46,428 nucleotides of DNA from a virus: IMG/VR virus record IMGVR_UViG_3300024265_000091, positions 1 through 46,428 of that record. One strand, written 5' to 3'. The translations under genes were made by a program, and so were the position numbers. This document shows, piece after piece, positions 1-24,326 of the stretch. The notes under the pieces are model-generated. The model ran no database searches. It worked only from the letters and a program-made list of their open reading frames with translations, and was not told where the DNA came from. Every line of letters begins with the position of its first letter. Within the stretch, counting starts at the first letter, position 1.

Positions 1-38
1 CTGTAAAGATGCACTCTCAGCCGAATGCATCTTTACAG
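1..38. repeat. Perfect 13-bp inverted repeat at the window edge
   Basis: Bases 1-13 (CTGTAAAGATGCA) are the exact reverse complement of bases 26-38, with a 12-base loop. The repeat lies inside the TerL reading frame. The frame reads a nuclease-type VDPAKT motif and then SAESA, and its last three residues (SLQ) are encoded entirely by the folded-back copy. This is what a snap-back chimera primed at a TGCA micro-homology would look like, so bases 1 to about 10 should not be trusted. Confidence 0.8.
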
Positions 39-963
39 TTTTCGCAGGGTCCACAATTACTACCGATTCAATATTCTTTTCGTTAACCAGATCTGGCTCT
101 TCATAATACTGGAAATATTCAGGTCTAAACGTAGCATCTTCAGTCGACACCGGTATGTTTCTATACTCTCTATAAAACATATCTAACTGGCCACGATTAG
201 CATGTTCATCTCTAAGCTTCATAACATCTTCGTCACTCATAAAATCAGGCCAGGTCGAGTGATAGTTATCATCACAAATACTTAATTGAACACTATGCCA
301 TGAGGGATCTTCGAGTAAGTTAATCAATAACGAATCCTCGTGTAGAACTGTGCCAATTACTATGATTTTCCAGTTGTCCTTAGCCCGATCAATGGAGTTA
401 CAAACATCCGAAAACCACCAGTCCTTTAACTTCTTCCTTTGATCCTCACTCATTACACTTTCAGAATTCTCTAAGTCATCTGCTATAATCAAGTCAGGTC
501 GATATCTGTTGAACAGATTACCACGCACTTGCTGGCCAGCACCCCTAGGCATGACCATAGTTCCACTTGCAGTAATCCATTGATCTCTGGAGAATGACTC
601 ACTCTTCATTGAGCCGAAAAGTTCCCTAATCACAGGATTGTACATCAACTCCCGTTTTAAGTTCTCACCTTGAGTCACGGCGTTAGTCGCAGTTGCACTA
701 ATCGGTACAATGAATTTCTTTTCTTTAAACAGGATCCGTTTAGCAGGATGGGCAATAGTGCAAAGTGAAGTTTTACCAAAGCCTCGTGGCGCAGCTATTA
801 CCGCCTGCTTAATTGTGTTATCATCTAGGATTCTGAATATCTCATCATGGAGTGTTGAAAATGGTAGATCGAAACGCTCAGGGAATAGTACCTTGGCAGA
901 AACCTTAGTACTCCCGTAACAACGTCCCATTATTTCTTCTATACCTTCTTGCGTCTTAAGCAT
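1..963 (-). CDS. terL: Terminase large subunit (TerL), C-terminus missing
   Basis: This is the DNA-packaging motor ATPase/nuclease that docks on the portal and cuts concatemeric DNA. I read the frame from the ATG at 963 (start MLKTQEGIEE) for 321 codons to the window edge without a stop. Residues about 58-66 form a Walker A loop (APRGFGKTS). Residues about 157-165 form the Walker B/acid pair (PDLIIADDL). Near residue 305 VDPAKT begins the RNase H-like nuclease domain with its first catalytic Asp. TerL proteins are normally 450-600 residues, so most of the nuclease domain is outside the window. The last residues come from a fold-back repeat and are suspect. It is the last late gene before the left edge. 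An operator-like palindrome lies just upstream, between it and the preceding stop. Confidence 0.93.
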   Translation of the reverse strand, partial: MLKTQEGIEEIMGRCYGSTKVSAKVLFPERFDLPFSTLHDEIFRILDDNTIKQAVIAAPRGFGKTSLCTIAHPAKRILFKEKKFIVPISATATNAVTQGENLKRELMYNPVIRELFGSMKSESFSRDQWITASGTMVMPRGAGQQVRGNLFNRYRPDLIIADDLENSESVMSEDQRKKLKDWWFSDVCNSIDRAKDNWKIIVIGTVLHEDSLLINLLEDPSWHSVQLSICDDNYHSTWPDFMSDEDVMKLRDEHANRGQLDMFYREYRNIPVSTEDATFRPEYFQYYEEPDLVNEKNIESVVIVDPAKTVKMHSAESASLQ

Positions 964-970
964 TATAATC

Positions 971-20389: not shown

Positions 20390-21004
20390 TTATTCGTTCT
20401 CAGGAGTCACATCAATAACTGTAGGATCCGGCCGTGCAAAGCCATTTTCAATTGCCTTTTGTTTTATGTTTTCAATCTCATCTGCCGTAAAATGAGCTAC
20501 TACATGACTGGCATTGATAGTACGAACAGCACTATAACCTGCCCGATCAAGCCAGTTATTTGCTTCCTTGGCACGAAGTCCCACTGGAGCATCTATATCT
20601 CCATTCATTATTTTCTCGAGAATAACAAGAGCTTTTGGAGCCTCTTCCCTGATCTTAACCGCCAGATCAACCGTCTTTGCATCGCGCGCACCTTCCATCA
20701 ATTGAAGTTTATCCTGTACAACTCGGGAATTCCTGACATACGAAACCATAGCTTTCGACACATCAAGATCTTCCGCAATGTGACTGGCCTTTTGGCCCAA
20801 GAAGAGTCGCCGGGTAATCTCGTTGTGAATTTCCCACATCTTTGAAACTTCAAATGTCCTTCTAGTTTCTGGCTTTCTCCGCCTGTCAATTTCCCTAAGT
20901 GGATCACTTCCATTGAAATAGTCAGGACGAATTGACTGGCGAATTGACTGGCTCCCTTCGGTCGCTAGCATTTCATCTAGTAATTGTGTACTTGATTGCA
21001 TCAA
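20390..21004 (-). CDS. HTH DNA-binding protein, putative terminase small subunit
   Basis: The 204-residue protein carries a helix-turn-helix at about residues 63-93 (ITRRLFLGQKASHIAEDLDV). A long helical segment with KIREEAPKALVILEKIMNG follows, then a segment resembling LRAKEANNWLDRAGY. The combination of an N-terminal HTH and an oligomerising helical part is typical of TerS, which recognises the packaging site. It is the second late gene, overlaps the upstream stop by 4 bases, and is far from TerL. A late transcription regulator is the alternative. Confidence 0.55.
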   Translation of the reverse strand: MMQSSTQLLDEMLATEGSQSIRQSIRPDYFNGSDPLREIDRRRKPETRRTFEVSKMWEIHNEITRRLFLGQKASHIAEDLDVSKAMVSYVRNSRVVQDKLQLMEGARDAKTVDLAVKIREEAPKALVILEKIMNGDIDAPVGLRAKEANNWLDRAGYSAVRTINASHVVAHFTADEIENIKQKAIENGFARPDPTVIDVTPENE

Positions 21005-22466: not shown

Positions 22467-22494
22467 TTGACAAACGACTAAAATATGGTATGAT
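22467..22494 (+). promoter_or_regulatory. Early-arm promoter 1
   Basis: TTGACA (22467-22472), a 16-base spacer and TATGAT (22489-22494) preceded by ATGG. Transcription would begin near 22501 and run into the 569-nt stem-closed module and the early genes. Confidence 0.75.
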
Positions 22495-22557
22495 GGAATC
22501 AACATTGACAATGAGGGCGTAGGGCATCTGATCGATGACTACGTGTAATGAGGTTCT

Positions 22558-22585
22558 TTGACAACTGAATAGATATGAGTGTAAT
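22558..22585 (+). promoter_or_regulatory. Possible early-arm promoter 1b
   Basis: TTGACA (22558-22563), 16 bases and TGTAAT (22580-22585). The -10 box overlaps the left arm of the long inverted repeat. It is weaker than the 22467 promoter. Confidence 0.4.
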
Positions 22586-23147
22586 CCATATCAAGGCATG
22601 GTGCACTGTGACGCAATATGTCACGAAATGAGGTGCAATATGTCAGGTATAATTGAACGATGTGGATTGTGGCTCCGTGGTAATGAGTCGTACTCGAGTG
22701 GTGTGGTAATTGACGCTGACAACATGACGGCAGTGGTCAATAAGACCTACTCCACAACCGGGCAAAATAAGGATAATGGTAATAAGACCATGATGGGAAT
22801 GATCGTGGATTTCTCCAACATCCCGATATTGACCATCTACCTCGGATTTATCGAGTATTTCATTATCAACTGGTTTCGCAAAACTGCCAAGGTTAGCAAA
22901 ATGACGGTGGACGGGCTAACTAAAAAGTACCAAGGCAAGACCATCATGGCCGAGGATTTCCAGCCCGCTGAGGGTGGTGGACGGAAAACCAATGAGGAAA
23001 GGATTGACGACCTCATGAACTCCGACGATGAATTGGATAGGGAATTGGCCGGGCTGTTAATAAAAGACCCTATCGCGGGTTACAAGTTAATGAAAGAAAG
23101 AATGGTAGAATAACCCTAACCGCATCATGCCTTGATATGGGTTGCAC
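22579..23147 (+). ncRNA. Candidate large structured RNA module closed by a 26-bp stem
   Basis: Arms 22579-22604 and 23122-23147 pair over 26 positions. Fifteen in the core (22586-22600 with 23126-23140) are perfect, and the three mismatches in the full arms are all G-U pairs in RNA. Inside are many local hairpins: GTGAC/GTCAC near 22608, GAGT-CGT-ACTC near 22687, GGTC-AATAA-GACC near 22736, ATGGT/ACCAT near 22777, GTTAGC/GCTAAC (22892/22914), ACCC/GGGT. Size and layout recall the large ornate phage RNAs (GOLLD, ROOL), but a protein frame also runs through it. RNA identity is a hypothesis. Confidence 0.4.
22640..23113 (+). CDS. First early-arm protein, unknown, inside the inverted-repeat module
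   Basis: I chose the ATG at 22640 because AGGTG lies 4 bases upstream; an earlier ATG at 22598 has no usable ribosome site. The 157-residue product has a hydrophobic stretch IPILTIYLGFIEYFIINWF in the middle. A charged C-terminal half follows (GGGRKTNEERIDDLMNSDDE). Codon third positions are GC-rich, unlike the AT-rich neighbours. It is enclosed by a 26-bp inverted repeat and carries many RNA hairpins. The dense structure leaves open that part or all of it is RNA rather than protein. Confidence 0.5.
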   Translation: MSGIIERCGLWLRGNESYSSGVVIDADNMTAVVNKTYSTTGQNKDNGNKTMMGMIVDFSNIPILTIYLGFIEYFIINWFRKTAKVSKMTVDGLTKKYQGKTIMAEDFQPAEGGGRKTNEERIDDLMNSDDELDRELAGLLIKDPIAGYKLMKERMVE

Positions 23148-23179
23148 TTAAAATAAATGATGAAAGGAGGTGAAATAGA

Positions 23180-23461
23180 ATGAATGAATACTTTGAATTG
23201 ATCGAAGATTCTGATATGGAGTCTAGTAGGTCTTGGATATGGTACTGCTCAGATTGCGGAGCATTATTTGGGTCTAAAGCAATACCTAATCGGACTATCT
23301 TCCCTTGGTTTGGATATCATCCAAGTGATGGAAATTGCCAAGTACTCAGTGACGAACTCAGAATTAATGTTCGACACAAAGCGGAAATATGTGAATGCTC
23401 CGTTAGAATTAAAAGGGTACTTACAGTAAAATTGTTAAAGAACTTATTATCCACAACCTAA
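23180..23461 (+). CDS. Small Cys-rich protein
   Basis: The 93-residue protein has a strong GGAGGTG site. It carries W-Y-C-SDC-GALFGSK and later CECS, which could hold one zinc. It ends 10 bases before a strong intrinsic terminator, so it closes the first early transcription unit. Function is unknown. Confidence 0.65.
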   Translation: MNEYFELIEDSDMESSRSWIWYCSDCGALFGSKAIPNRTIFPWFGYHPSDGNCQVLSDELRINVRHKAEICECSVRIKRVLTVKLLKNLLSTT

Positions 23462-23471
23462 ACTATCAAAG

Positions 23472-23509
23472 TCCACTATGTTCAATTATCGAGCATAGTG
23501 GATTTTTTT
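23472..23509 (+). terminator. Intrinsic terminator built around an operator-like site
   Basis: TCCACTATG (23472-23480) pairs with CATAGTGGA (23494-23502), extended inward by TTC/GAG with one wobble pair. The loop has 7 bases and T7 follows at 23503-23509. The stem core (23476-23498) is a fully symmetric copy of the dispersed palindrome: CTATGTTCAA-N3-TCGAGCATAG. Confidence 0.85.
23476..23498. promoter_or_regulatory. Dispersed palindromic operator-like site, copy 7
   Basis: This symmetric version (both ends CTATG/CATAG) is embedded in the terminator stem. It has no ribosome site after it. Confidence 0.65.
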
Positions 23510-23576: not shown

Positions 23577-23606
23577 TTGACAAGTGGAAATATGTTATGT
23601 TATTAT
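23577..23606 (+). promoter_or_regulatory. Early promoter 2
   Basis: TTGACA (23577-23582), an 18-base spacer and TATTAT (23601-23606). The upstream TATTTCCATCATTTAATACC is repeated almost exactly before the 30228 promoter, giving a shared extended promoter module. It would drive the genes from 23913 onward. Confidence 0.65.
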
Positions 23607-23638
23607 GTAATTGTAATGTGTAATTGTTACTGTAATTT

Positions 23639-23858
23639 GTTATGTTACTCTTTTTGTAATCGACCCCCACCCCTCCTCGATAAATTGTGAGCAAAGTGAG
23701 AAAAGAGTGACCCTGGAAAAAAAAAAAAGAGAAAACAATAAATAAGATATATTATTATAATTACATATACTCTTCTACTCTCTCTCTATCTTCTCTACTC
23801 TACTTTGTTCAATAAATCGAAATGGGGTGGGGGTGAATTACGTTTAGAGTAACATAAC
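23639..23858. repeat. 35-bp imperfect inverted repeat
   Basis: The left arm (23639-23673) begins GTTATGTTACTCT and ends ACCCCCACCCC. The right arm (23824-23858) is its complement except for about six positions in two clusters. The arms are 150 bases apart. Confidence 0.8.
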
Positions 23859-23889
23859 AACATAACATAACAACATAACATAACAACAT
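23851..23889 (+). repeat. Three perfect 13-bp direct repeats (iterons)
   Basis: AACATAACAACAT is repeated without error at 23851-23863, 23864-23876 and 23877-23889. Inverted relatives (ATGTTATGTT) lie before the left arm of the inverted repeat. Confidence 0.85.
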
Positions 23890-23912: not shown

Positions 23913-24326
23913 ATGATTAAAACGCTGGTGATTATACTGGCAATCGTGATCACTTTTATTAGCACTAACCTACGGGCAGAAGATACTCAGGGATATGACT
24001 TCATTGTGTGTGTTCTCAGTGGTAAAGGAGAAGAGTGTACTTATGACTTGTATCAATCAGATTGTAATCACATGGGAAGTATTCCGAACTCAACCTTCAT
24101 TGTTCAGACTGATTCAGGAGAGGTCAGGTTAGTGTTTGGTGAGGGATTTGGTTACTGTCCGTCAGGAGATGTTGAGATGAACTCAGGAGTGATGTGGAAA
24201 TATGCTACAACAGAAGAGTTCTTGATATTGAGAAGTTCTGAAGGAATTGAGTTTATGTTTGTGAGGATGTATGACGGGAGTTTTATCTTAGTTGATTCAT
24301 CAATGATAATATTAGAGGAGGAATAG
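23913..24326 (+). CDS. Small exported protein
   Basis: The 137-residue protein has a clear Sec signal: MIK, a hydrophobic run LVIILAIVITFIS and a likely cleavage near LRA-ED (residue 22). The mature part has four Cys (VCVLSGKGEECTYDLYQSDC) and a later YCPSGD, suited to disulphides in the periplasm or outside. It is the first gene after the candidate origin and early promoter 2. Exclusion of superinfecting phage is a possible role but is not shown. Confidence 0.7.
   Translation: MIKTLVIILAIVITFISTNLRAEDTQGYDFIVCVLSGKGEECTYDLYQSDCNHMGSIPNSTFIVQTDSGEVRLVFGEGFGYCPSGDVEMNSGVMWKYATTEEFLILRSSEGIEFMFVRMYDGSFILVDSSMIILEEE

Follow-up and report, generated by a model that had tools for sequence, protein, structure and literature searches.

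The first early gene of the phage analysed here probably lies in a transcription unit built like a ribosomal RNA operon, a mimic placed around a messenger RNA, for which we infer tethering by Nus factors and cleavage by RNase III. As read from the sequence, its parts would follow one another as promoter, boxA, leader arm, ribosome-binding site with the gene, and trailer arm, matching an rRNA operon in both its parts and their order. This suggests that phages borrow the folding and processing route of rRNA for messenger RNA. The window, that is, the whole stretch of DNA analysed (46,428 bases, IMG/VR record IMGVR_UViG_3300024265_000091), encodes a portal-type head-tail adaptor, a major head protein, a DNA polymerase, a primase, and a ligase; from about 22.1-22.6 kb, its late genes run to the left and its early genes to the right. 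Among named phages, Desulfofustis phage LS06-2018-MD01 (OP947158) has the closest DNA polymerase (46.6%), and its layout is similar. On the minus strand, a homologue of the large terminase (45% over 339 aa; window positions 1-969) runs off the contig start, and the terminase small subunit lies far from it at 20390-21004; the two adjoin in L060. Positions 1-38 form a short inverted repeat, perhaps an artefact of end assembly.

All parts of the unit are on the plus strand. A promoter-like site, TTGACA-16-TATGAT (22467-22494), was placed by consensus match only, and the boxA of rRNA-operon type, GGTTCTTTGACAACTGAATAG (22552-22572), was recognised from relatives and from a search of a genome collection. 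The boxA ends 3 nt before the 5' arm, or leader strand, of the closing stem (22576-22604), and the 3' arm, or trailer strand, follows at 23122-23150; both arms were defined by repeat search, RNA pairing, and relatives. Between the 5' arm and the ribosome-binding site GAGGTG (22630-22635, from sequence), a small local hairpin, GTGAC/GTCAC (22608-22624), was seen in the sequence and in the fold. The enclosed first early gene (22640-23113, from the ORF list, sequence, and relatives) encodes a protein of 157 aa, P0001. The start given in the ORF list, 22598, falls within the 5' arm and is an unlikely one. Behind the 3' arm and outside the stem, the next gene of the early unit (23180-23461, 93 aa) has its own ribosome-binding site, and an intrinsic-terminator-like hairpin (23468-23506) ends the unit. 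The 93-aa protein, translated from just past the 3' arm, has a weak similarity to a SprT-type zinc ribbon (E 0.0036, below the Pfam cut-off).

Read as RNA, the two arms pair over 29 positions, with 25 Watson-Crick pairs, 4 G-U pairs, and 0 other mismatches. The first-pass annotation had described arms of 26 positions with only G-U-compatible differences; the stem is real, and longer than was claimed. That annotation had overlooked the boxA next to the 5' arm and had assigned no positions to the enclosed ORF. An inverted-repeat search of the window returned arms at 22578-22604 and 23122-23148 (27 nt, 89% complementary), and this stem was the top inverted repeat of the whole window for spans up to about 1200 nt, with a score of 25 against 16 for the runner-up. 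In 100 dinucleotide shuffles of the window, the maximum stem score was 18, compared with the 25 observed. Moreover, the minimum-free-energy fold of 22500-23210 (plus strand) closes on this stem, with a z-score of -4.85 and 0 of 20 shuffles equally good. The differing base composition that had been claimed for the module was also borne out, since its GC content is 45.5%, compared with 42.1% in the preceding 1 kb and 34.8% in the following 1 kb.

To find the same region in other phages, the terminase small subunit, whose gene is close to the early region, was used as the query, since the P0001 sequence itself found no relatives. An alignment of four such subunits led to 39 viral loci, of which 24 were kept and joined with the window and OP947158 to give 26 loci. 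The others were dropped because of too little upstream DNA (L063, L074, L075, L076, L077, L098, and L100), because they seemed to duplicate another locus (L066, L080, L083, L086, L087, L094, and L095), or for the absence of a recognisable gene (L090). The 26 loci are not fully independent and include the groups L068/L071/L072/L073/L088, L009/L085, and L093/L099. Read along the early strand, nearly all of the viral loci had a first early gene of about 100-160 codons inside an inverted repeat whose letters differ between phages, and every relative that was used had an ORF in this position. A stem score of at least 11 was reached by 24 of the 26 first early genes; among the 277 remaining early ORFs of these loci, 6 reached it (Fisher p 8e-28, calculated over non-independent loci). 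Raising the threshold to at least 13 left 18 of the 26 genes and 2 of the 277 remaining ORFs; both of the latter are small, lie immediately upstream in L062 and L079, and have a stem of their own.

The two loci missed at a score of at least 11 were L072, in which the stem is bulged, and L068, in which the 5' arm and the ribosome-binding site are absent. Set beside L072, L068 still has its boxA and 3' arm, and the missing part may have been lost recently or dropped in assembly. In the 25 loci without L068, the start codon lay 21-48 nt beyond the end of the 5' arm, and the stop lay 5-22 nt ahead of the 3' arm, except in L072, where the value was 32 and the ungapped measure took another pairing. 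Arm length ranged from 11 to 34, with short ungapped stems of 11-15 pairs in L081, L082, L096, L093, and L097; the helices were often lengthened through bulges, though some of the short stems were not. The minimum-free-energy fold lacked the closing stem in L009, L073, L078, L096, and L097, and in L068. RNAduplex energies were also compared with those of swapped 3' flanks, and 11 of 25 loci (L068 not among them) beat all 24 swaps. This energy was dropped as the main statistic, being noisy and giving some duplex in every flank pair, and the case for the stem rests on the ungapped-stem statistic. In the joined early stretch of the named phages Mel-JY34 and MW202489, neither a boxA nor a recognisable gene-closing stem was found.

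When all mismatches were penalised equally, the stems of the 26 loci contained 422 Watson-Crick pairs, 33 G-U pairs, 2 A-C pairs, and 7 others; without four members of one close group, 387, 31, 1, and 7 remained, respectively. Decay of DNA complementarity alone would leave G-U and A-C about equally frequent. The excess of G-U over A-C (33 versus 2, p 4e-8) therefore points to pairing in the early mRNA. Furthermore, in L093 and L099, which are 82% identical in coding DNA, four stem positions differ, with both sides changed and all pairs kept. Homologues without compensatory changes in the closing stem had been named in the first-pass annotation as the outcome that would speak against its reading, and these four double changes are the contrary result. 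Its claim of RNA-level selection was accordingly supported by the compensatory changes and by the G-U excess across loci, whereas the three differences counted in the window alone are weak evidence; the argument that all differences are G-U is strong because of the 26-locus comparison. From these comparisons of sequences, selection appears to act on the stem as mRNA pairing.

Directly upstream of the 5' arm, the relatives share a conserved motif, the best form of which is GTTCTTTGACAAYTGAATA. It was strong, and placed ahead of the first stem, in 20 of the 26 loci, a count that is partly circular in that the weight matrix was built from the same loci. The boxA was diverged in five loci (L009, L067, L070, L084, and L085) and was not seen in L082, which has a 13-bp stem. 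Two genes are enclosed in each of L062 and L079, and there the motif precedes only the first stem. By eye, a small hairpin lies between boxA and the arm in some relatives (L089, L093, and L099, for example), unlike in the window. A disguised -35 box was considered and rejected, for 0 of 20 loci had a -10-like hexamer 16-18 nt downstream; a promoter-like site matching at least 10 of 12 positions was present upstream of the strong boxA in 19 of 20 loci. The exact 21-mer of the window occurred at 26 places in a genome collection of 84,980 species. Eighteen of these places precede rRNA, with a 16S start in 13 (72-187 nt further on) and a 23S start in 5; five were not judgeable (four sequences ending at once and one masked), and three were non-rRNA. 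By eye, L110 among the latter lies before CRISPR-like repeats, and L101 near a cas-like gene. Because it is almost confined to rRNA leaders in this collection, the 21-mer is, by its sequence, the boxA of rRNA operons.

A search of IMG/VR in the reverse direction, with boxA alone (TTCTTTGACAAYTGAATA), gave 110 contigs, of which 8 were too short to score and 102 were used. A stem with a score of at least 13, starting within 70 nt of boxA, was found at 33 of the 102 viral sites, compared with 17 of 1020 random positions on the same contigs (p 7e-25, a value that takes near-identical contigs as separate). Such contigs are among the matches: six carry one 282-nt ORF-less segment, three carry one stem, and two carry another. 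No stem of at least 13 was present at the other 69 of the 102 sites, and therefore boxA and stem are not obligately linked. The loop was often one ORF covering about 90% of it, with examples in L227 (28 perfect pairs, 129 aa), L169, L208, and L205 (209 aa). Many of these ORFs look dissimilar, so the layout is not restricted to one protein family. The enclosed proteins of ten boxA-found contigs gave one PHROG match (E 0.0098), which is without function. At 22 hand-picked boxA sites, the stems contained 363 Watson-Crick, 23 G-U, 3 A-C, and 15 other positions, where in several sites (L223, L131, L233, L130, L222, and L164) the ORF start was taken inside or before the arm and a shorter or another stem was measured. 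L130, L131, L214, and L217 have a stretch of boxA and arm in common (AATATTGATAGTTGGT...), which surrounds an ORF that differs between them (185, 90, 240, and 146 aa, respectively), and their 3' arm overlaps a terminator; this looks like swapped cargo in one slot. In L135, L145, L147, L157, L158, and L166, boxA is followed by the stem-closed 282-nt segment with no ORF of 50 codons. The L135 stretch was matched by 32 Streptococcus phage records.

In the mechanism that we propose, host NusB/S10 would bind boxA on the nascent RNA and tether the leader to RNA polymerase, and the trailer arm would pair with the tethered leader as it emerges, as in the tethering model proposed for the leader-trailer helix of 16S rRNA (PMC4807359, PMC10250234). 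A leader-trailer helix of more than 17 bp is critical in E. coli 16S (PMC10250234); the window has 29 pairs, and several relatives have fewer than 17 ungapped pairs. Once closed, the helix would most likely be an RNase III site, and cutting would free the mRNA of the gene from the boxA leader and from the downstream genes. Stems of 11-15 pairs are short for RNase III, which counts against cleavage of the shorter ones. In addition, the helix would shield both ends of the message, and ribosomes would start and stop inside the loop with the helix unmelted; the end protection and the free cycling of ribosomes are proposed because of the positions of the arms.

Several known systems share some of these traits. 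Like a bacterial rRNA operon (a pre-16S or pre-23S unit), the phage unit has boxA just upstream of the leader arm and long complementary arms around the product, and the boxA of Nitrospira and Acidobacteria rRNA leaders is identical to that of the window. Unlike an rRNA operon, it surrounds a message of about 0.45 kb that codes for a protein and has a ribosome-binding site of its own; no rRNA was found inside the stem (no Rfam match in the window), and the interior is an ORF. By analogy, the phage unit would work like an rRNA-type boxA/leader-trailer unit, yet it is no rRNA operon. The early mRNA of T7 has RNase III sites, which are local and intergenic, so the window, with a putative site in a phage early mRNA, is similar in kind and different in placement. 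In hok mRNA, long-range 5'-3' pairing silences the message; the ends are likewise paired in the window, but its ribosome-binding site is free inside the loop. The boxA is also found outside rRNA, in CRISPR leaders (PMC7862264) and in suhB and toxin mRNAs (PMC5725501), to which the above genome match before CRISPR-like repeats can be added; the available text of these two sources describes no gene-closing helix there.

Other readings of the stem were weighed against the rRNA-like unit. A large RNA in the style of GOLLD or ROOL, as entertained in the first-pass annotation, found no footing, for no Rfam family reached the gathering score anywhere in the window (0 matches in a covariance-model search that included GOLLD and ROOL), and the interior is one ORF, in the relatives as well. 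The exact inverted arrangement around one gene, and the arms that L130, L131, L214, and L217 share around different genes, would fit a feature of the DNA, namely inverted repeats at the ends of a cassette that moves or inverts, or an operator pair. However, the 33 G-U against 2 A-C pairs are strand-specific, the arms differ in sequence between phages and in length from 11 to 34, and the enclosed protein has no Pfam family, and we regard such a DNA-level role as very improbable. The small mobile cassette that had been suggested earlier was likewise set aside, given that the arms vary in sequence, keep their position, and tolerate G-U and not A-C; no transposase or recombinase family was found in the enclosed protein (Pfam, PHROGs), and no target-site duplication was seen by eye. 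A coding mRNA with a processing stem is thus favoured among the three options of that annotation, since the stem encloses one ORF and RNA-level selection is supported; the cutting itself is putative. An abundant early transcript carrying boxA and helix might also act as a decoy that titrates NusB/S10, SuhB, or RNase III, so that the host makes less rRNA. It is the first and probably a strongly transcribed early unit with an rRNA-type boxA, but a decoy helix would not need to enclose the gene so exactly, and this role seems quite improbable.

Two further readings keep the stem in the mRNA and assign it another function. The helix may be a protective clamp and not a cleavage site, a closed loop that pairs the ends, blocks exonucleases, and keeps ribosomes cycling, with boxA guarding only against Rho. 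The arms lie just beyond the ribosome footprint at start and stop, terminator-like sites follow the enclosed gene in 13 of the 26 loci, which often leaves no downstream RNA to be removed, and stems of 11-15 pairs would still hold. Nevertheless, a clamp leaves the boxA adjoining the 5' arm unexplained, and stems of 25-34 pairs are a known kind of RNase III target; we consider a purely protective stem doubtful. The leader of phage lambda offers the other precedent, in which the order of promoter (pL), boxA (in nutL), RNase III target, and first early gene (N) is the same and the RNase III site is a local hairpin. On this pattern, Nus factors bound at boxA would repress translation of the gene, and cutting of the stem would relieve the repression and time the first early protein. 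As in lambda, boxA stands in an early phage transcript ahead of the first early gene, but the helix of the window joins distant segments across the gene instead of forming a local hairpin, no boxB hairpin lies between boxA and the arm (which begins 3 nt after boxA), and the sequence of the unrelated protein P0001 gives no sign of an Arg-rich N. Repression by a boxA-bound Nus complex is on record for suhB of E. coli (PMC5725501), and the roles of lambda boxA/boxB and N are covered in PMC10250234. Such a translational switch is unlikely for the phage unit. In comparison with these readings, the rRNA-like unit is preferred. In a tentative extension of it, rRNA-mimic messages may occur in several unrelated kinds of phage as an RNA module that is portable, given its layout around unrelated proteins; boxA would recruit Nus/SuhB, and the rRNA maturation machinery would fold the mRNA, cut it out, and shield it.

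The enclosed proteins were compared by profile. Two subgroups among the first early proteins of the relatives matched each other (probability 97.3, E 2e-11), and P0001 matched one subgroup with probability 38 (E 3e-4) and the other with probability 2.5. Together with its position, boxA, and stem, the profile similarity gives moderate support for P0001 as a member of this family. Among 21 members scanned against Pfam and PHROGs, no family was matched by more than one member, and the best single match was a PHROG without function (E 0.0004). Homologues of P0001 numbered 0 in viral contigs by peptide patterns, 0 in named phages, and 0 in Pfam; one weak match was obtained in PHROGs (E 0.14) and one in the 51 records behind the retrieved loci (E 0.0014, with internal stops). 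The DNA of the early region had no match in named phages, and the contigs related by portal (85%) were too short to extend into the early region. AlphaFold models of the family were of low confidence (pLDDT 70.8 and 71.8; pTM 0.39 and 0.45), and fold searches with the second model returned nothing at E <= 0.001.

A second large hairpin was observed downstream. Window positions 23591-23882 form a near-continuous hairpin of about 290 nt (z -9.35), a larger structure than the closing stem, with a promoter-like site (23577-23606) on its upstream side and the next gene, at 23913, on its downstream side. A long hairpin was in the same place in 14 of 14 loci chosen, with 903 Watson-Crick, 83 G-U, 45 A-C, and 192 other positions in total, and similar hairpins are found in Mel-JY34 and MW202489. 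Because the G-U excess is mild, an RNA leader and a DNA origin are both possible.

In the open-access literature, at the level of titles and the starts of abstracts, no description of boxA plus a helix around a phage gene was found. The main role of boxA and the Nus factors at rRNA is debated between stopping Rho and tethering the leader for closure of the long 16S helix (PMC4807359). In the phage unit, boxA and a closing helix stand on a 0.45-kb mRNA that is free of ribosome assembly, and antitermination and helix closing would be separable by simple mutations. If the reading is true, the unit would be an independent natural test of the tethering model. The enclosed protein family is a candidate for early host takeover, a role that we can only guess at from its being the first early product. 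For the phage, the arrangement would be a way of securing the expression and the ends of its very first message.
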